NCBI GenBank assembly: GCA_905182275.1
Contig: CAJJAU010000031.1
Coordinates: 1 to 59,663, forward strand
Length of the DNA: 59,663 bases
Source: a gamma proteobacterium HTCC2207
Lineage (GTDB): Bacteria > Pseudomonadota > Gammaproteobacteria > Pseudomonadales > Porticoccaceae
Direction: 5' to 3'
Shown here: one piece after another, positions 31,995-42,586 of the stretch
Numbering within the stretch: position 1 is the stretch's first letter
How the letters are laid out: every line of letters begins with the position of its first letter
Made by a program: the position numbers and the translations under genes
Notes under the pieces: model-generated
What the model was told of the DNA's origin: nothing
Databases searched by the model: none
The model's input: only the letters and a program-made list of their open reading frames with translations

Positions 31995-32031
31995 TAAAAT
32001 ATTATAAATGAAGTTAGAGGGAGCTGTAATA

Positions 32032-33903
32032 ATGAAGAAAATTATCATCATGCTATGTGCAATGGCGAGCGCAATGGCCAGTGCAGAGGCAACCAAAAAC
32101 GTCTATTTTGGTGACACGCACCTGCATAGTTCTTACTCCTTTGACGCATTTTTAAATAATAATCACAGTGCGGACCCAGATGCAGCGTACCGCTGGGCGA
32201 AAGGCCAACCTGTTATACACCCTTATAATCGAACCAGAGTCCAGATAGGCACACCGTTAGATTTTCTTGTGGTATCAGATCATGCTGAGATGCTCGGTGT
32301 TATGAAGGCAGTGCGAGAAGATACCATGATAAAAGAAGATCTTGGCTGGATCGGAAATATCAAGAGATGGTATTCCTTTCGACTGATGAATGAGGCTATT
32401 GATACTGATACTGGGTTACAGTTTTTCGGGCAGTTTTTGCCCAAAATTTCTATGGATAATGGCCATAATGATCCGGTAAAAAATTCCAATAATAATATTT
32501 CCACGGTGGATATTTTTGGCGATATGACAAAAACATCAAAAATAGCCTGGGATGATATTGTTGAGAGTGCAGAGCGCCATAATGATCCAGGAACCTTTAC
32601 TAGTTTAATCGGTTGGGAGTGGAGCTCGATTCCCATGGGAGCTAATTTACATCGCATTGTTATAACCCCGGATGGTGCCGATAAAGCCAAGCAGTTCTTG
32701 CCTTATGGATCAGATAAAAGTCAGTATCCAGAGGATCTCTGGCAATGGTTAGATGAGACCCAGCAACGTACTGGAACTCGATTTATTGCCATTCCCCATA
32801 ACTCGAACATCTCTAAAGGCTATATGTTTGATAATACTACTTTGCGTGGAGAGCCTATCGATGCTGATTATGCTCGCCGTCGGATTAAATGGGAGCCTAT
32901 TGTCGAAGTTACTCAGATCAAAGGCGATAGTGAAACGCGCAGCGATTTTTCTCCGGATGATGAGTTCGCAGATTTTGAGAACTACGACCACTATATCCAA
33001 CAGGGAAAATCCGAATATAAAGCGTCTACCGCAGATTATATTCGACCGGCATTAAAAAAAGGGCTAGCGATTGAGCAAGATATCGGCGTCAATCCCTACA
33101 AGTTCGGACTAATTGGGTCGACCGATGCTCACTCTGGCCTGTCCTCTGCCGAAGAAGGCAATTTTTGGGGGAAAATGGCAAAGGACTCAACGCCTGAAAC
33201 GAAAGAACGCTTTGGAAGTATCAGCTCTTCTAACGGTTGGAATATGTCGGCATCTGGGCTGGCTGCAGTCTGGGCTGAAGAGAATACCCGTGAGGCAATC
33301 TATGCCGCCTTCAAACGCAAGGAAGTGTATGCCACCTCAGGGCCTCGCTTGCGGGTTCAAATGTTTGCCGGATGGGATTTTCCTGAAGGTGCTGAGACGA
33401 GCGAGAGCTTTGCTCTGATTGGCCGTCAGTACGGCGTGCCCATGGGTGGTGACTTAGTGGCTAATGATAACGACGGCAAAGCGCCGGTGTTTTTATTGCG
33501 AGCAGTAAAGGACCCTGCGGGCGCTAACTTAGATCGGTTTCAGGTGGTCAAGGGATGGATTGATAATGCTGGGCAGCAGCAGGAAAGGGTCTATAACGTT
33601 GCTTGGTCTGATGGGCGCCAATTAGATGCGAGTGGTAATTTGCCACCGGTGGGCAATACAGTCGATGTTAGCTCTGGCCGCTATACAAATACTATTGGGC
33701 AGCCTGAATTCTCACTGACCTGGGCAGATCCAGATTTTAATCCGCAGCAATCTGCATTTTATTATGTTCGAGTGTTGCAAATCCCAACGCCGAGAAACGG
33801 TTTACTGGACAGCTTGGCATTGGAGCTGGATCAGCCACCAAGAGGACCAAAAACGATTCAGGAACGAGCCTACTCTTCGCCTGTTTGGTATAAGCCCCAA
33901 TAG
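32032..33903 (+). CDS. DUF3604 exported PHP-like putative metallohydrolase, copy 1
   Basis: 623 residues from ATG 32032 (AGAGGGAG upstream). A signal peptide (MKKIIIMLCAMASAMASAEA) should send it to the periplasm. Potential metal ligands recur as in PHP phosphoesterase-type barrels: FGDTHLHS (D28, H30, H32), VVSDHAE (D83, H84), AIPHNSN (H256) and GSTDAHSG (D365, H367). This is the DUF3604 pattern; the substrate of this family is unknown to me. About 60 percent of positions look identical to the next gene by eye. The C-terminal ~170 residues (VFLLRAVKDPAGANLDR, YYVRVLQIPTPR) may form a beta-rich accessory domain. First gene of a likely four-gene operon. Confidence 0.83.
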   Translation: MKKIIIMLCAMASAMASAEATKNVYFGDTHLHSSYSFDAFLNNNHSADPDAAYRWAKGQPVIHPYNRTRVQIGTPLDFLVVSDHAEMLGVMKAVREDTMIKEDLGWIGNIKRWYSFRLMNEAIDTDTGLQFFGQFLPKISMDNGHNDPVKNSNNNISTVDIFGDMTKTSKIAWDDIVESAERHNDPGTFTSLIGWEWSSIPMGANLHRIVITPDGADKAKQFLPYGSDKSQYPEDLWQWLDETQQRTGTRFIAIPHNSNISKGYMFDNTTLRGEPIDADYARRRIKWEPIVEVTQIKGDSETRSDFSPDDEFADFENYDHYIQQGKSEYKASTADYIRPALKKGLAIEQDIGVNPYKFGLIGSTDAHSGLSSAEEGNFWGKMAKDSTPETKERFGSISSSNGWNMSASGLAAVWAEENTREAIYAAFKRKEVYATSGPRLRVQMFAGWDFPEGAETSESFALIGRQYGVPMGGDLVANDNDGKAPVFLLRAVKDPAGANLDRFQVVKGWIDNAGQQQERVYNVAWSDGRQLDASGNLPPVGNTVDVSSGRYTNTIGQPEFSLTWADPDFNPQQSAFYYVRVLQIPTPRNGLLDSLALELDQPPRGPKTIQERAYSSPVWYKPQ

Positions 33904-33922
33904 CTTGTTTTAGGAGATCGTT

Positions 33923-35791
33923 TTGAAAAAGTGCCTTAGTGTAGTGTTCAGCACCTCAATATTTTGCTCTTTGCCTATTTTGGCAGAGACAGAAACGAAG
34001 GTGCTTTTCGGTGATACCCACCTCCACTCTGCCTATTCCTTTGATGCATTTCTCAATGACAACGATTCTGCATTTCCTGATGACGCTTATCGTTGGGCTA
34101 GGGGACTGCCCGTTATACATCCTACTAACCGAGTTAGAGTGCAAATTGAGACGCCTTTAGATTTCTTGGTGGTATCAGATCATGCCGAAGTTCTTGGTGT
34201 GATGACTGAGTTGCACTCAGATCGAAGTCTATTGGCAGATATGGGTTTTTGGGGAAACTTTAAACGTTGGGTTAGCCTCGAAATTGCGGACTATTTAATT
34301 GATAGCGGCCGTGCTGAGCTGCTTTTCACTTACGGGCTGCCAAAGCCCCCGGTGGGATCTGGCCATGATCCAGTGGCCGATGAAAATGGCGCTGTATTAG
34401 ATGCTGGCTTCGGTGATACCACAGCCATTCGTGGGCATGTGTGGGAAGATATTGTGGGTGCAGCTGAGCGTCACAATCGTCCAGGAACCTTTACAAGTTT
34501 AATAGGTTGGGAATGGACATCAACGCCGACTGGCGCCAATTTACACCGAGTGATATTGACACCAGATGGTGCTGAAAAGGCCTCTCAATTTTTACCTTAT
34601 GGTTCAGATGAGAGTCAGTATCCTCAAGATCTTTGGCGTTGGTTAGAAAAAACCGGCGAACGAACAGGTACACGGTTTTTATCGATTCCTCATAACTCCA
34701 ATTTATCCAAAGGCTATATGTTCGATGACTTAACGTTGGAGGGAAATCCTATCACCGCTGAGTACGCATCCACGCGCATGGCGTTTGAGCCAGTTGTTGA
34801 AGTCACTCAAATTAAGGGTGACAGCGAATCTCTTCCAAATAGTCCAGCAGATGATTTTGCGGATTTTGAAACCTATCAATATTATTTGCAGGCTTATGGA
34901 ACAGATTATCAGCCGCAGGCGGGTGATTATGTGCGCTCCGCCTTAAAAAGGGGGCTCTCTATTGCCGAAGATATTGGTGTAAACCCTTACAAATTTGGCA
35001 TGATTGGGTCCACTGATTCGCATACTGGCTTAGCTTCGGCAGAGGAGGGCAATTTTTGGGGAAAATACCCCAATGACTCAACGCCCGAGACTAAAGATCA
35101 AGCGATTATCGGCGATTCTGATAACAGTGGGTGGTCTATGTCAGCTTCAGGATTAGCGGCTGTCTGGGCTAAAGAAAACACCCGAGAAGAGATCTACGCT
35201 GCATTTAAACGCAAAGAAGTTTACGCCACCACCGGACCAAGATTGAGGCTGCAGATGTTTGCTAGCTGGGCATTCCCCGAAAATAGTGAAGACAATAACA
35301 ATCTGGCTGAGATTGGTTATGCCTATGGTGTGCCCATGGGCGGCGATTTACTGCGCCAAAATGAAGGGGGAGCACCGCAGTTTTTGCTCCGCGCGGTAAA
35401 AGACCCAGTCGGCGCTAATTTGGATCGAGTTCAAATTATTAAAGGCTGGCTCGACCAAGCGGGCAGGCAGCAAGAGAAAGTTTACAACGTTGTATGGTCC
35501 GATGATCGGACTCTGGATAAGGATGGAAGGTTACCGTCAGTTGGCAGCACCGTAGATTTAAATACGGGTCGCCACATAAACAGTATTGGCACGGCTGAGT
35601 TATCGGTGCTGTGGGAAGATCCAGATTTTAATCCTGGCCAGCGCGCATTTTATTATACTCGTGTTATGCAGATACCTACCGCGCGACATTCTCTATATGA
35701 CGCTATCGCGCTTCAGGCGATGGATCTTGATAACGGGCCGAATACTATTCAAGAGCGAGCCTATAGTTCGCCTATCTGGTACACGCCCTGA
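33923..35791 (+). CDS. DUF3604 exported PHP-like putative metallohydrolase, copy 2
   Basis: 622 residues. Start is TTG at 33923, supported by AGGAG six bases before it and by a signal peptide (CLSVVFSTSIFCSLPILA) that begins directly after. All the candidate metal motifs of copy 1 are kept: FGDTHLHS, VVSDHAE, SIPHNSN and GSTDSHTG. The two copies differ most in the segment after VSDHAE (about residues 90-165) and in the stretch near ETKERFG/ETKDQAI, which could shape substrate choice. It follows copy 1 by 19 bases. The tandem arrangement suggests an old duplication with divergence rather than a recent copy. Confidence 0.82.
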   Translation: MKKCLSVVFSTSIFCSLPILAETETKVLFGDTHLHSAYSFDAFLNDNDSAFPDDAYRWARGLPVIHPTNRVRVQIETPLDFLVVSDHAEVLGVMTELHSDRSLLADMGFWGNFKRWVSLEIADYLIDSGRAELLFTYGLPKPPVGSGHDPVADENGAVLDAGFGDTTAIRGHVWEDIVGAAERHNRPGTFTSLIGWEWTSTPTGANLHRVILTPDGAEKASQFLPYGSDESQYPQDLWRWLEKTGERTGTRFLSIPHNSNLSKGYMFDDLTLEGNPITAEYASTRMAFEPVVEVTQIKGDSESLPNSPADDFADFETYQYYLQAYGTDYQPQAGDYVRSALKRGLSIAEDIGVNPYKFGMIGSTDSHTGLASAEEGNFWGKYPNDSTPETKDQAIIGDSDNSGWSMSASGLAAVWAKENTREEIYAAFKRKEVYATTGPRLRLQMFASWAFPENSEDNNNLAEIGYAYGVPMGGDLLRQNEGGAPQFLLRAVKDPVGANLDRVQIIKGWLDQAGRQQEKVYNVVWSDDRTLDKDGRLPSVGSTVDLNTGRHINSIGTAELSVLWEDPDFNPGQRAFYYTRVMQIPTARHSLYDAIALQAMDLDNGPNTIQERAYSSPIWYTP

Positions 35792-35819
35792 AGATGTATG
35801 AACTTGCATTATTGAACAA

Positions 35820-36737
35820 ATGGTATCGCCTATGAAATTTTCTTACCGCCAGTTACTTAAAGAGCCCTTGGTACAATTTATGGCCATCGGACTGTTATTG
35901 TTCGGCGGTGAACGATTATTGAACTCGGATGATTATGCAGATAGCCAGAACAACATACTGGTTGATGACAAAGTGTTAACTCAATTTCTACAACAGCAAG
36001 CGAAAAAGTTCAAACCTGAGCAGGCCAAAAAGGCCTTAGCGGCGATGAGTGATGATCGGCGGCAGAGACTCGTAGATGACTATGTTCGCGGAGAGGTCCT
36101 TTATCGAGAGGCACTGGCGCTAGATTTAGATCGCAATGACCCTATTATTCGCCGTCGACTCATGCAAAAGATGGACTACCTCGCTCAGGGCTTTTATGAC
36201 GAAATAGAGCCTCTCACAGAAGATGACTTAACGGCCTTTTATGAGGCGAACAGGGAAGACTACAGGAAGCCTGCAAGCGCGACCTTTACGCATGTTTTTG
36301 TCTCCAGTGAAAAACGCGGTTCTGAGGAGAGTAAAGTTCAGGCTGAGAGTTTACTCACAATGATTAATCAGACTGGAGTACCCTTTGAAAAAGCCGGACG
36401 GCATGGTGAGCGGTTTTTATATAATCGAAATTATGTCAACAGAGACAGTCAAGAGATAGCCAGTCATTTTGGGCGGTCATTTGAGCAACAATTATTCGCT
36501 TTAAACCCAGTCCTGCCAGATGCTGAGTCGCAGTGGCAGGGTCCATTGCTGTCAAGTTATGGATGGCATCTGGTGCTGCTGACCAAAAACATTGAGTCTT
36601 TTATTCCTCAACTTATTGAAATCAGTGGAGTGGTTTTGGCTGATGCACAGCGGCAGCAACAGGGTGAGCTCAAGCGCTTGGCTGTTGATGCGCTTCGCGC
36701 CAAATATCAGATTACCAAAAGAGTTCAGGCCAATTGA
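35820..36737 (+). CDS. Membrane-anchored peptidyl-prolyl isomerase (PpiC/SurA type)
   Basis: 305 residues. A single N-terminal helix (LVQFMAIGLLLFGG, about 17-30) anchors it in the inner membrane, followed by a helical chaperone-like part (RQRLVDDYVRGEVLYREALAL) and a parvulin-like region (about 140-260: PASATFTHVFVSS through LLSSYGWHLVLL). The parvulin core is divergent, so isomerase activity is uncertain and a holdase/foldase role is equally possible. ATG 35820 and ATG 35832 are both possible starts; neither has a strong ribosome site. It overlaps the next gene by four bases and follows the DUF3604 pair by 28, so it probably helps fold those exported proteins or the HupE-like partner. Confidence 0.82.
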   Translation: MVSPMKFSYRQLLKEPLVQFMAIGLLLFGGERLLNSDDYADSQNNILVDDKVLTQFLQQQAKKFKPEQAKKALAAMSDDRRQRLVDDYVRGEVLYREALALDLDRNDPIIRRRLMQKMDYLAQGFYDEIEPLTEDDLTAFYEANREDYRKPASATFTHVFVSSEKRGSEESKVQAESLLTMINQTGVPFEKAGRHGERFLYNRNYVNRDSQEIASHFGRSFEQQLFALNPVLPDAESQWQGPLLSSYGWHLVLLTKNIESFIPQLIEISGVVLADAQRQQQGELKRLAVDALRAKYQITKRVQAN

Positions 36738-37729
36738 TTAGAGCTGCCTTAGCCTTTTTGTGTCTATTTGTGTTTATGTCGCAGATCACCGCCGATGAGG
36801 CTAGGCCGGTCTATGTAGAAATTGATCAGGTGTCGCCTTTAAAATACTCGGTTAGGTGGAAGATTCCTCCAGTCATGGCCGAGGGAGAGGAACCGCGAAT
36901 TAGTTTAGAACATGCCAGTTGTAATTTGGCAATGGATCAGCCGTCAGCCGGTTTGCTGGGGCGTGCGTTGTATGAGTGCAGTGAGACTGACTTAAAATTT
37001 GATATAAGACTGATTTATCCTGTGGGTAACCCAGCGTTAACGTCGCTGGTTGTGTTCAAAGGTTTATTCTCCGATCCTCAGCAAATCTTCTCGGGACCTG
37101 AAGTTACCACCATTACATTGGGTGCACTCGATGAGCCGCTAGATGTCAGCAAGCAATATCTTTTTGCCGGTATAGAGCATATTTTGGTTGGATCAGACCA
37201 TCTTTTATTTATTGTGTGCTTAATTGTGATTGCGCGCAGTTTTAAGCGGTTAGTTCTTACAGTGACGGGCTTTACTGCAGCGCATTCGATCACCTTGAGT
37301 CTGGCAACCTTAAATATTGTGCAAGTCAGGACTGAGTTGGTCGAGCTGCTTATTGCACTGAGTATTCTTTTGCTGGCTGTTGAGATTATTAAGCATTACC
37401 GGATTAAAGATCACACCAGCTTTACATGGCGTTATCCGATAACAGTATCTTCTGTCTTTGGTTTACTTCATGGGTTTGGGTTTGCGGTGGTGTTACAAGA
37501 GCTGGGGCTACCGCAGTCAATGAAAATTCATGCACTGTTGTTTTTTAATATTGGCGTCGAAATTGGCCAACTACTATTTATTGCCGCAGTTATGGCCGTT
37601 TCCTTATTGGCAATAAAATTGATCCCTGCTGTGGGTAAAAGTCAGGCGATGATTACTCAATTATCTATCTATGTTATCGGCAGTTGCAGTGCTTACTGGC
37701 TTTTCGAGCGGACTATCTTGTTGCTGTAA
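36734..37729 (+). CDS. HupE/UreJ family membrane protein
   Basis: 331 residues from TTG 36734, which overlaps the previous stop (TTGA). A signal peptide (MIRAALAFLCLFVFMSQITA) leads into a ~110-residue extracytoplasmic domain with two cysteines (C63, C82), then about six membrane helices. The helices carry FAGIEHILVGSDHLLF (H149, D155, H156), a conserved H184 in GFTAAHS, H246 in GLLHGFGF and E276, the HupE/UreJ pattern linked to nickel or other metal transport. Neither urease nor hydrogenase genes are present, so a metal-supply role for the DUF3604 enzymes is my inference only. Last gene of the operon; converges on suhB. Confidence 0.82.
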   Translation: MIRAALAFLCLFVFMSQITADEARPVYVEIDQVSPLKYSVRWKIPPVMAEGEEPRISLEHASCNLAMDQPSAGLLGRALYECSETDLKFDIRLIYPVGNPALTSLVVFKGLFSDPQQIFSGPEVTTITLGALDEPLDVSKQYLFAGIEHILVGSDHLLFIVCLIVIARSFKRLVLTVTGFTAAHSITLSLATLNIVQVRTELVELLIALSILLLAVEIIKHYRIKDHTSFTWRYPITVSSVFGLLHGFGFAVVLQELGLPQSMKIHALLFFNIGVEIGQLLFIAAVMAVSLLAIKLIPAVGKSQAMITQLSIYVIGSCSAYWLFERTILLL

Positions 37730-39538: not shown

Positions 39539-40015
39539 ATGCGACTTACTACTAAAGGACGCTATGCAGTGACGGCCATGTTAGACCTGGCGTTACATGC
39601 ACAAGGAAGGCCGGTTTCGCTTGCTGAGATTTCGGAGCGGCAATCCATTTCGCTCTCCTACCTAGAACAGTTATTTTCTCGGTTGCGACAGTCGGGGTTG
39701 GTGGCAAGTGTAAGAGGGCCTGGTGGCGGTTATCGGCTAGTTGAGCCCAGCGCAAATATTTGGGTTGCTGAAATAATTGATGCAGTAAATGAGTCGGTAG
39801 ATACCACTAACTGCCAAGGCAAAGGTGATTGCCAAGGTGGAAGCATTTGTTTGACTCATGATTTGTGGGATGACTTGAGTCAGCAGATACATAACTTTTT
39901 AAGTAGCATTTCGCTGGCGGATTTAGTCGCCAAGCGCAATGTGCAAGAAATAGCCCATCGTCAAGTTACACAGCTTTTGACTTTGGATGAAAACATGCGG
40001 GCAAGCGCCTGCTAA
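39539..40015 (+). CDS. iscR: Fe-S cluster assembly regulator IscR
   Basis: 158 residues, Rrf2-family repressor. Winged helix at about 1-65 ([32 protein letters not shown]); the 2Fe-2S ligands are C92, C98, C104 and H107, the same numbering as in E. coli. The holo form represses the isc operon; the apo form activates other targets. GAGGAA precedes the ATG. A small stem (CACCA/TGGTG) occurs in the leader at 39509-39522. First gene of iscRSUA-hscBA-fdx. Confidence 0.97.
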
Positions 40016-40028
40016 TTTGGAGTAGTAA

Positions 40029-41243
40029 ATGAATCTTCCGATTTACCTAGATTATGCGTCAACAACCCCAGTTGATCCTGTGGTTGCAGAAAAGATGATG
40101 GAATTTATGACCCCCGCTGGTCATTTTGGAAACCCTGCGTCACGTTCGCACATGTTCGGTTGGCAGGCAGAAGCGGCTGTTGAAGATGCGCGCCAGGACG
40201 TTGCTACCCTAATTGGTGCGGATCCTAGAGAAATTGTGTGGACCTCCGGTGCGACTGAGGCTAACAATCTTGCTATTAAAGGTTGCGCTCATTTTAATCA
40301 GCGTAAAGGCAAACACATTATTACTTCTCGAATCGAGCACAAGGCTGTTTTGGACACTTGTCGCCAGTTAGAGCGAGAGGGTTTTGAGGTGACTTACCTT
40401 GACCCTGATAGTAACGGTTTGATTCAACCAGAAATGGTTGCAGACGCCATCCGTGAAGATACAACGGTCGTGTCGATTATGCATGTTAATAATGAGCTTG
40501 GCACGCTCAATGATATAGCAGCCATCGGTAAAATTTGCCGAGAAAATAAGGTATTTTTCCACGTGGATGCAGCTCAAAGCGCAGGCAAGACCGCTATTGA
40601 TGTTGAAGCAATGTTCGTTGATATGATGTCGTTTTCAGCGCACAAAATTTATGGCCCAAAAGGTATTGGAGCACTCTTTGTGCGGCGCAAGCCTCGGGTG
40701 AGAATTGAAGCTCAAATGCATGGTGGTGGACACGAGAGAGGTATGCGTTCTGGTACTCTGCCGACCCATCAAATTGTAGGTATGGGGCAAGCATTTAAAA
40801 TTGGTTTTGAAACACTGGCTACTGAAGACGCGCGCATTGAGGCATTACGAACCCGTCTTTGGGAAGGTGTGACCGATATGGAAGAAGTGCATCTGAATGG
40901 GTCAGAGGACCAGCATGTACCCGGTATCGTCAATATAAGCTTTGCCTTTGTAGAAGGGGAGTCATTGATGATGTCGTTGCGCGACCTAGCGGTTTCATCG
41001 GGTTCTGCCTGTACCTCTGCGAGTTTAGAGCCATCCTATGTTTTGAGAGCTCTTGGGCTCAACGACGAGATGGCACACAGCTCGATCCGGTTCAGTATCG
41101 GTCGTTATACTACCGAAGCTGATATCGACGCGGCTATCGCGCAAGTAAGAGTGGCGGTTGAGAAACTACGCTTGCTTTCCCCTCTTTGGGACATGTTTAA
41201 AGCCGGTATCGATTTAAGTACTGTACAATGGTCAGCACATTAA
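40029..41243 (+). CDS. iscS: Cysteine desulfurase IscS
   Basis: 404 residues, PLP enzyme that takes sulfur from cysteine and loads it on IscU and other acceptors. PLP lysine K206 in [13 protein letters not shown]104 in SRIEHKAV, and the persulfide cysteine C328 in [12 protein letters not shown] agree with E. coli numbering. Length equals the E. coli enzyme. It starts 13 bases after iscR. Confidence 0.97.
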
Positions 41244-41296
41244 GGGCTCGACATTTTAGAGCTATAGATTTAGGTTAATTAATAGGAGTCATTGAT

Positions 41297-41680
41297 ATGG
41301 CTTACAGTGAAAAAGTTTTAGATCATTATGAAAATCCGAGAAATGTCGGTCAACTTGATGAGAATTCCAAAAATGTCGGGACTGGCATGGTTGGGGCACC
41401 TGCCTGTGGGGACGTTATGCGTCTACAAATTCGGGTCAATGATCAAGGTATTATTGAAGATGCTAAATTCAAGACCTACGGGTGTGGGTCAGCCATTGCA
41501 TCAAGTTCTCTTTTGACTGAATGGGTCAAGGGCAGGCACTTAGATGACGCAGAGCAAATCAAAAATACTGAAATTGCTGAAGAGCTGGCCTTGCCGCCGG
41601 TTAAGATCCACTGCTCTGTGTTGGCGGAAGACGCAATTAAAACTGCCGTCCGTGATGTAAGAGCAAAGCAGGGGCTTTAA
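41297..41680 (+). CDS. iscU: Fe-S cluster scaffold IscU
   Basis: 127 residues. The cluster is built on C37, C63 and C106, with D39 in PACGDVM favouring transfer. LPPVK at 99-103 is the recognition site for the HscA chaperone. A normal scaffold with no missing ligand. It lies 53 bases after iscS and 9 before iscA; a ribosome site AGGAG precedes its ATG. Confidence 0.97.
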   Translation: MAYSEKVLDHYENPRNVGQLDENSKNVGTGMVGAPACGDVMRLQIRVNDQGIIEDAKFKTYGCGSAIASSSLLTEWVKGRHLDDAEQIKNTEIAEELALPPVKIHCSVLAEDAIKTAVRDVRAKQGL

Positions 41681-41689
41681 GGTTTCTCG

Positions 41690-42013
41690 ATGAGTATAAC
41701 CATGACATCAGCTGCACAGCAGCACGTAAGCAAGCATCTAGAGCATCGTGCTAAAGGATTGGGCGTCCGCCTCGGTGTGCGCACAACTGGGTGTTCTGGT
41801 TTGTCTTATGTCTTAGAGTTTGTCGACGATGCTGCGGCTGGTGATGAAATCATCGAATGCGGTGATGTAAAGTTGGTGATTGATCCTAAAAGTTTGTTAT
41901 ACCTTGATGGTACTGAGTTGGACTATGTCAAAGAGGGACTAAATGAGGGGTTTGAATTTAGGAACCCCAATGTGAAGGATGAATGTGGTTGTGGAGAAAG
42001 CTTCCACGTCTAG
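41690..42013 (+). CDS. iscA: Iron-sulfur assembly protein IscA
   Basis: 107 residues, A-type carrier of iron or clusters. The three conserved cysteines are C35 (TGCSGLSY), C99 and C101 (ECGCGESF). Length is that of E. coli IscA. Placed between iscU and hscB as in the standard operon. Confidence 0.96.
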
Positions 42014-42055
42014 CTTGCATACCTTTCAATGTAAAATAGTCAGAGTGAAGGCCCA

Positions 42056-42586
42056 TTGGATTTTTCTAGTAATTTCTTCGATGTTTTTTCTATTCCCGTA
42101 GCCTGGGATGTAGATCTTAATGGTTTAGGCATCCGTTATCGCGCTCTGCAACAAGAATTCCATCCCGATCGTTATGCGACCAAAACAGAGGTTGAAAAAC
42201 GTCTTGCGGTACAATCAGCGTCACTGATCAATCAAGCCTTTGATACCTTAAAGTCGCCACTAAAACGGGCGCAGTACCTTCTAGAGTTAAATAACGTCAA
42301 CGCTAACCAGGAGGCACATATAACCACCGATAGTGGATTTTTAATGCAACAAATAGAGCTTCGTGAAGCTCTGGCAGGTGTTTCAAAAACACAGGATCCC
42401 TGGGTTGAATTAGAGCGCTTAAAATATGAGATAGAGCAGACTTATATAAAGCTTCAAGGTGAATTTCAGCACTTTTTTTCCACTGATGCGTTGAAGCTTG
42501 CTTTTAATACAGTGGCCAAGATGCAGTTTTTTGCCAAATTACTGACCGAAATAGAGCACTTAGAAGATGAACTGGATGACGCTTAA
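42056..42586 (+). CDS. hscB: Co-chaperone HscB
   Basis: 176 residues. A J-domain at the N-terminus carries the HPD triplet (36-38 in FHPDRYAT) that stimulates HscA; the C-terminal helical bundle (about 95-176) binds IscU. The start is TTG at 42056 with GAAGG about six bases upstream; the family starts with the same Y/F-F-D-V-F-S pattern. Only three bases separate it from hscA. Confidence 0.94.
   Translation: MDFSSNFFDVFSIPVAWDVDLNGLGIRYRALQQEFHPDRYATKTEVEKRLAVQSASLINQAFDTLKSPLKRAQYLLELNNVNANQEAHITTDSGFLMQQIELREALAGVSKTQDPWVELERLKYEIEQTYIKLQGEFQHFFSTDALKLAFNTVAKMQFFAKLLTEIEHLEDELDDA

Follow-up and report, generated by a model that had tools for sequence, protein, structure and literature searches.

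The question raised by this locus is why a membrane-anchored parvulin and a HupE/UreJ-type permease are encoded directly behind two putatively exported proteins of the family DUF3604. The window, a stretch of 59,663 nucleotides on contig CAJJAU010000031.1, belongs to a SAR92/Porticoccaceae genome of 2.0 Mb and 91% completeness. Its nearest relatives among the assemblies compared are also SAR92/Porticoccaceae (L007 and L055, 89-91% protein identity). Four plus-strand genes follow each other in the order D1-D2-PPI-HUP: two DUF3604 genes (D), the parvulin gene (PPI) and the permease gene (HUP). DUF3604, PPI and HUP co-occur near-obligately and are tightly linked, and the source genome carries this set with a duplicated enzyme gene. 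The three proteins may constitute a conserved maturation module, made up of a DUF3604 exoenzyme, a parvulin anchored in the membrane and a HupE_UreJ_2 permease that also has a periplasmic domain, an assignment which is held to be about an even bet.

Recurrence of DUF3604, PPI and HUP

The set was searched in 299 Pseudomonadota genomes (phylum sample) and in 145 genomes of the order (order sample). The DUF3604-bearing genomes G000, G015, G019 and G093 as well as the families f1 and f20 are part of both samples. In the phylum sample, no PPI score lies between 226.8 and 75.4 bits, and 22 genomes are placed above this gap. Every genome with a full DUF3604 protein (>400 bits; 21 genomes from 11 families) is among these 22. 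A strong PPI is present in 21/21 full-DUF3604 genomes versus 1/278 others, and in the exception (G281) the PPI-HUP pair adjoins a remnant of DUF3604. Counting any DUF3604 match, strong or weak, PPI occurs in 22/26 versus 0/273 genomes. The matches of the four PPI-less genomes (G015, G173, G260, G347) are weak or diverged. A HupE_UreJ_2 gene was found in all 21 full-DUF3604 genomes and in 47 of the 278 others. PPI-HUP is still present where D is not adjacent, at a distance of about 41 kb in G360 and on another contig in G392. Gene order varies while the set persists (D-PPI-HUP, PPI-HUP-D, HUP-PPI-D, D-HUP-D-PPI).

DUF3604 was detected in 40/145 genomes of the order sample. A HupE_UreJ_2 gene is located at most 6 kb from it in 28 of these 40, and 30 of 33 pairs are on the same strand. 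A HUP-linked PPI of at least 115 bits occurs in 36/40 DUF3604 genomes versus 5/105 others (Fisher 4e-24, uncorrected for kinship); a PPI line at 80 bits yields 37/40 versus 5/105. The 36 genomes with both DUF3604 and PPI cover 19 of the 21 DUF3604-bearing families. General parvulins, with lower scores, are present in nearly all order genomes. Protein distances over 43 trios correlate pairwise (Mantel r 0.77, 0.72 and 0.84, likewise uncorrected; 0/1000 permutations as high). That the three proteins are tied across the phylum and have diverged together shows coupling, not direction. Outside Porticoccaceae, no other neighbor cluster recurs to a comparable degree.

Closer to the source genome, 58 genome-contig loci encoding a D1 relative were compared. 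D, PPI and HUP are found together in 32/58 loci, and D stands alone in the fetched stretch in 26/58, including three loci (L034, L038, L055) whose contig ends inside D. A search of the genomes of the D-alone loci revealed a PPI of the subfamily (at least 115 bits) in 21/26, always followed on its own strand by a HupE_UreJ_2 match some 1 kb further downstream. These 21 include named Haliea, Parahaliea and Pseudoteredinibacter strains. Two Porticoccaceae loci with a D1-clade DUF3604 (L013, L015) lack PPI and HUP in the fetched stretch, and in both genomes a PPI-HUP pair is encoded at another place. At least four D-alone genomes (L035, L048, L052, L056) belong to the order sample as well, as judged by coordinates.

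The set is also encoded on named replicons. The conjugative plasmid pWSM1115_3 of Sinorhizobium medicae carries DUF3604-DUF3604-peptidylprolyl isomerase-HupE/UreJ, the layout of the window. DUF3604-PPI-HupE is present in Rhizobium johnstonii pRlX2, Ruegeria THAF33 and Pseudoalteromonas donghaensis. A Salipiger CCB-MM3 plasmid bears DUF3604 with the partners absent within 6 kb, and on a Microvirga plasmid no DUF3604 is listed within 6 kb of PPI-HUP. At the limits used, PLSDB contains 78 records with D relatives and 89 with HUP relatives. Recurrence outside close relatives, proposed as a check by an earlier sequence-only reading of this DNA, is hence observed in 19 order families, 11 phylum families and the named plasmids.

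The sequence-only reading had described a four-gene cassette. Its three components recur, and the tandem DUF3604 is not typical: the usual unit is one DUF3604 with PPI and HUP, and tandem copies were found in 5/58 loci (L009-L012, L040). A tree was built from 63 D proteins without the copies of the window; in it, the second copies from five relatives group as a single clade (support 100/100). This clade is placed beside the Porticoccaceae first copies, with a joint group support of 95/97. A single old duplication, kept in some lineages, is therefore likely.

Encoded proteins and neighboring genes

Open reading frames, direct reading of the sequence and Pfam searches agree with the four genes, positions and spacing (19, 28 and -4 bases) given earlier. 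D1 (32032..33903, plus strand) is an open reading frame of 623 residues with a Sec-type signal peptide, as judged by eye. Its start at 32032 is preferred, because it is preceded by GGGAG and no ribosome-binding site is visible before a longer in-frame ATG at 32008. D2 (33923..35791, plus strand) encodes 622 residues from a TTG start after AGGAG. D1 and D2 share 62% identity. They match PF12228 with 777 and 743 bits (cut-off 20.4), and the model covers nearly their whole length, identifying both as DUF3604 proteins. The metal motifs reported earlier for both copies are confirmed by the aligned ligand residues: D1 has H30, H32, D83, H84, E196, H207, H256, D365 and H367, and D2 has the same set. 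Eight of these positions are invariant in an alignment of 41 proteins (window copies and fetched loci), and H32 is conserved in 40/41. We take these His, Asp and Glu motifs to follow the order of the PHP family.

CehA/McbA enzymes are carbamate/ester hydrolases. They are PHP-type metallohydrolases with the same ligand order (HxH, SDH, E, H, DxH), and their profile (NF038032) yielded weak matches in 29/41 DUF3604 proteins (best E 8.4e-5). DUF3604 proteins, however, are much longer, and the window copies score 13-16 bits, below the cut-off of 80. No match of the DUF3604 proteins to the Pfam PHP family and no PDB relative in sequence or profile searches was obtained. In the open-licence literature searched, DUF3604 appears in a single, incidental paper and PF12228 in none.

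PPI (35820..36737, plus strand; alternative start possible at 35832) encodes a parvulin of the PpiC/SurA/PrsA type. Residues 133-260 match PF13145 (Rotamase_2) with 33.8 bits (cut-off 27), and one hydrophobic segment at the N-terminus, judged by eye, is the predicted membrane anchor. The profile matches solved chains of SurA, PrsA and cell-binding factor 2 (best 8sot, 6.6e-10; SurA, 3.7e-7). A rotamase domain above the cut-off together with matches to solved parvulins assigns PPI to the PpiC type. Unlike SurA, PrsA and PpiC, it represents a subfamily of its own with a large score gap in the phylum sample, an N-terminal anchor and a tie to HUP and DUF3604. Two His residues are of the catalytic type, an assignment that we presume: the C-terminal His 250 is present in 32/33 proteins, and the first, His 158, in 22/33 with Gln in 10/33.

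HUP (36734..37729, plus strand) overlaps PPI by four bases (TTGA). The protein consists of a signal peptide, a non-cytoplasmic domain of about 120 residues and a membrane domain (residues 142-294) that matches PF13795 (HupE_UreJ_2) with 150.6 bits, above the cut-off; PF04955 matches too. The membrane domain (37157..37615, plus strand), delimited by PF13795 and alignment, contains the motif HX5DH (H149, D155 and H156), H184 and H246. H149, D155 and H156 are invariant in 31 aligned rows, which places HUP in the HupE_UreJ_2 family. No PDB chain matched the HUP profile. HX5DH and the PF04955 match are shared with the nickel permeases (HupE/UreJ) encoded in clusters for hydrogenase and urease, whereas neither a urease alpha subunit nor a NiFe hydrogenase was found in the 91%-complete source genome. 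A nickel enzyme was therefore rejected as client in this genome.

Signal peptide, domain layout and PF13795 are common to HUP and the Ang-1 anglerases of Pseudomonadota (PDB 9GCE; PMC12537917). These Ang-1-HupE/UreJ-2 proteins bind Cu and Ni, and the N-terminal His that binds these metals has been reported as 100% conserved (PMC12537917, 2025). The non-cytoplasmic domain of HUP (36794..37156, plus strand) takes the Ang-1-like position, but its predicted mature N-terminus, DEARP, starts with Asp instead of His. Cleavage site and signal peptide were judged by eye, without a signal-peptide program. DEARP was read in 28/31 aligned rows (window and SAR92-type relatives) and HEGRP in 3/31 (L032, L037, L039, relatives from outside that group). 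Another 59 PPI-linked rows, some of which may duplicate organisms of the named loci, gave 30 His, 14 Asp and 15 unread by the pattern. The N-terminal His therefore seems not to be required in the PPI-linked subfamily, judging from these predicted N-termini. The main text of PMC12537917 mentions neither DUF3604 nor an isomerase, and no report of the DUF3604-PPI-HUP linkage was found in the open-licence literature searched.

Two further DUF3604 genes are present in the source genome. A third protein of 656 residues (contig C10, L065:10033-12003) has no PPI or HUP near it and may be served in trans. Its neighbors are FAD oxidoreductase-like and GcvT-like genes, named by eye. A diverged DUF3604 protein of 768 residues (contig C18, L066:2-3135; 97 bits) is encoded 5 bases after a HupE_UreJ_2 gene, which is truncated by the contig start. 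This pair possibly represents a second, paralogous set.

Upstream of D1, an AA_permease_2 gene (Pfam) lies on the minus strand. The divergent amino-acid permease of the sequence-only reading is thus present, but it is not part of the module. Together with aldehyde dehydrogenase, SuhB-like, TrmJ-like and Isc-like neighbors it forms a block which recurs within Porticoccaceae only, and module membership was rejected for all of them. The Isc-like cluster (IscR, IscS, IscU, IscA, HscB; named by eye) is located downstream at 39539-42586 of the window. Promoter and terminator scans were discarded as operon evidence, as counts stayed within the shuffle spread (11 versus 10.6; 7 versus 5.9).

Proposed maturation of DUF3604 proteins and its alternatives

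In the proposed maturation, a DUF3604 protein would leave the cytoplasm unfolded via Sec, as a PHP-like metallohydrolase. The parvulin at the inner membrane would fold the exported protein, and HUP would move or hand a transition metal to the outer face of this membrane, leading to a correct filling of the PHP site. Sec export, parvulin folding, metal delivery by HUP and hydrolase activity are steps that we infer, and TerC proteins offer the nearest parallel in mechanism. TerC proteins metalate Sec exoenzymes during secretion and co-purify with SecY, SecDF and PrsA (PMC10550928). In the TerC proteins MeeF and MeeY of Bacillus subtilis, too, an integral membrane metal protein and a parvulin-type foldase bring metal into Sec-exported enzymes (PMC10550928). 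HUP differs from TerC in its families (PF13795/PF04955, not PF03741), its periplasmic domain, its predicted function and the tie of its genes to one client family. No TerC match (PF03741) was obtained in the source genome.

Besides the recurrence, linkage, varying gene order and correlated protein distances given above, maturation is supported by three observations: the co-occurrence persists when D is not adjacent, PPI-HUP or PPI alone sometimes adjoin other metallohydrolases where D is missing from the locus, and the diverged DUF3604 gene starts 5 bases after a HUP gene in the same genome. Among the other metallohydrolases are calcineurin-like phosphoesterases beside PPI (L129, L163; L163 without adjoining HUP) and an MBL-fold protein beside PPI-HUP (L167, which has the D remnant). 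An alkyl sulfatase is the neighbor of a weak PPI of 72 bits (L171). PHP-motif proteins without a Pfam match adjoin PPI in L162, whose contig stops behind PPI, and in L166, with DUF3604 elsewhere in the genome. Several of these hydrolase genes are divergent or convergent to PPI, not co-oriented. At L161, L164 and L165, no metallohydrolase was present among the one or two neighbors annotated.

The PHP-motif proteins (L162:5426-7474, L166:3892-5907) comprise 670-680 residues with signal-peptide-like starts and HxH, GHS, HVE and SDWH motifs, and their genes are divergent from PPI. They perhaps represent an undescribed PHP-type family. An alignment with DUF3604 by hhalign spanned only 22 columns around HxH (probability 23%), so that their kinship does not go beyond motifs. 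DUF1254/DUF1214 proteins are encoded beside the trio or PPI-HUP in two genomes of another class (L152:3709-5403, L156:3454-5112) and on the Microvirga plasmid (L222:7031-10155).

HUP genes without PPI adjoin DUF4331 with TPR, DUF3500, purple acid phosphatase, 5'-nucleotidase and cation diffusion proteins. In five loci (L126, L127, L130, L131, L133), a PPI-less HupE_UreJ_2 gene follows a protein of 362-423 residues (TPR by Pfam in L126), and a DUF4331-type protein is near (Pfam in L130, similarity in the others). DUF4331 is not treated in the open-licence literature searched. A first tally of metallohydrolases beside HUP was rejected as proof of enrichment, since 6/8 adjacent matches were themselves queries. 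A blind tally covered 85 adjacent proteins (88 minus one duplicate and two very long ones) from HUP loci that lack DUF3604, whether or not PPI is present. Pfam identified DUF4198 (6), Metallophos (3), Lactamase_B (2), 5_nucleotid_C (2), DUF3500 (2) and Cation_efflux (2). None of these six was among the 25 families listed, of 151, for a random draw of 88 out of 221 distal proteins, a list that would mostly leave out families with one member. DUF4198 has been reported near Ang-1 in the anglerase study too (PMC12537917).

Several points weigh against a maturation module. HupE is known as a nickel importer (as cited in PMC12537917). A periplasmic enzyme would not be supplied by metal imported to the cytoplasm, and export or hand-over of metal by HUP is assumed. 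The evidence for a PHP fold of DUF3604 consists of motifs and the weak CehA/McbA matches. Gln replaces the first catalytic-type His of PPI in 10/33 proteins, and the parvulin may therefore be a chaperone only. The thresholds of 115 bits for PPI and 400 bits for full DUF3604 were chosen after the lists had been seen, the order sample shows no clean PPI score gap, and neither the Mantel nor the Fisher values account for kinship. Three order genomes with D (G015, G027, G082) have no strong PPI, and a fourth (G031) has a weak one. Five order genomes (G011, G081, G084, G098, G137) possess PPI without D; at G081 and G137, the only annotated PPI neighbor is an IMP dehydrogenase. Among the 26 genomes of D-alone loci, five are devoid of a strong PPI: L054, L058 and L059 gave no match, L034 reached 111 bits and L055 67 bits. 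The L034 and L055 assemblies measure 1.3-1.4 Mb and are cut inside D.

The main rival is metal scavenging, in which DUF3604 hydrolyses an organic metal ligand or a metal-binding ester outside the inner membrane, HUP imports the metal thus freed and the parvulin does no more than fold one or both proteins. The description of HupE/UreJ-2 as a nickel permease domain and the proposal that Ang-1 catches metals for uptake (PMC12537917) agree with it, as do trios located beside TonB receptors (L107, L148) or an ExbBD-TonB set (Ruegeria THAF33). Such TonB neighbors are not general, however, and a dedicated parvulin would be unnecessary. Moreover, a first look gave 26 DUF3604 candidates in G003 and 25 in G047, of which 8 were scored and matched in each genome, but a single strong PPI per genome, so that a maturation service fits better than one uptake route. 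Scavenging is regarded as unlikely. It is quite improbable that PPI-HUP serves the envelope in general, as a metal or folding pair, with DUF3604 being just one frequent neighbor: the PPI subfamily does occur without DUF3604 in 5/105 order genomes, but a strong PPI is absent from every phylum-sample genome without a full or remnant DUF3604. Least probable is a catabolic operon, with DUF3604 hydrolysing a nutrient (ester, lactone or phosphoester) and HUP carrying the product across the inner membrane; the oxidoreductase- and GcvT-like neighbors of the third DUF3604 and the CehA/McbA hydrolases as nearest characterised relatives by weak profile match would suit it, but HUP is an unlikely product carrier, since His/Asp motifs that are typical of metal permeases are retained in its membrane domain and PPI-HUP pairs also occur beside unrelated hydrolases.

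The sequence-only reading had proposed a metal-dependent hydrolase system of the periplasm that brings along a foldase and a transporter for metal or product. In outline this proposal is supported by the wide recurrence of the set, and the conserved ligands are in line with it; the nickel client and the upstream permease are dropped from it.

Implications for exported metalloenzymes

How Sec-exported metalloenzymes obtain the right metal has been described as not always clear (PMC10550928), and in our view metal acquisition by such enzymes is largely open in Gram-negatives. Tentatively, and with the balance tilted against it, dedicated exoenzyme assembly sets may exist in Gram-negative bacteria. 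In each, a parvulin would act together with a HupE_UreJ_2 permease, whose outer domain would bind metal, to fold and metallate a single family of exported metallohydrolases. DUF3604 would be the obligate client of the main set, sister sets would serve calcineurin-, MBL- and other PHP-type exoenzymes, and the change from His to Asp in HUP would retune the metal delivered. The module, which joins a single client family to a single foldase and a single metal permease, represents a compact test case; it is found in Pseudoalteromonas, Ruegeria and SAR92 as well as on plasmids of rhizobia. DUF3604 gains a first functional frame, in which its activity is best considered with its two partners co-expressed.

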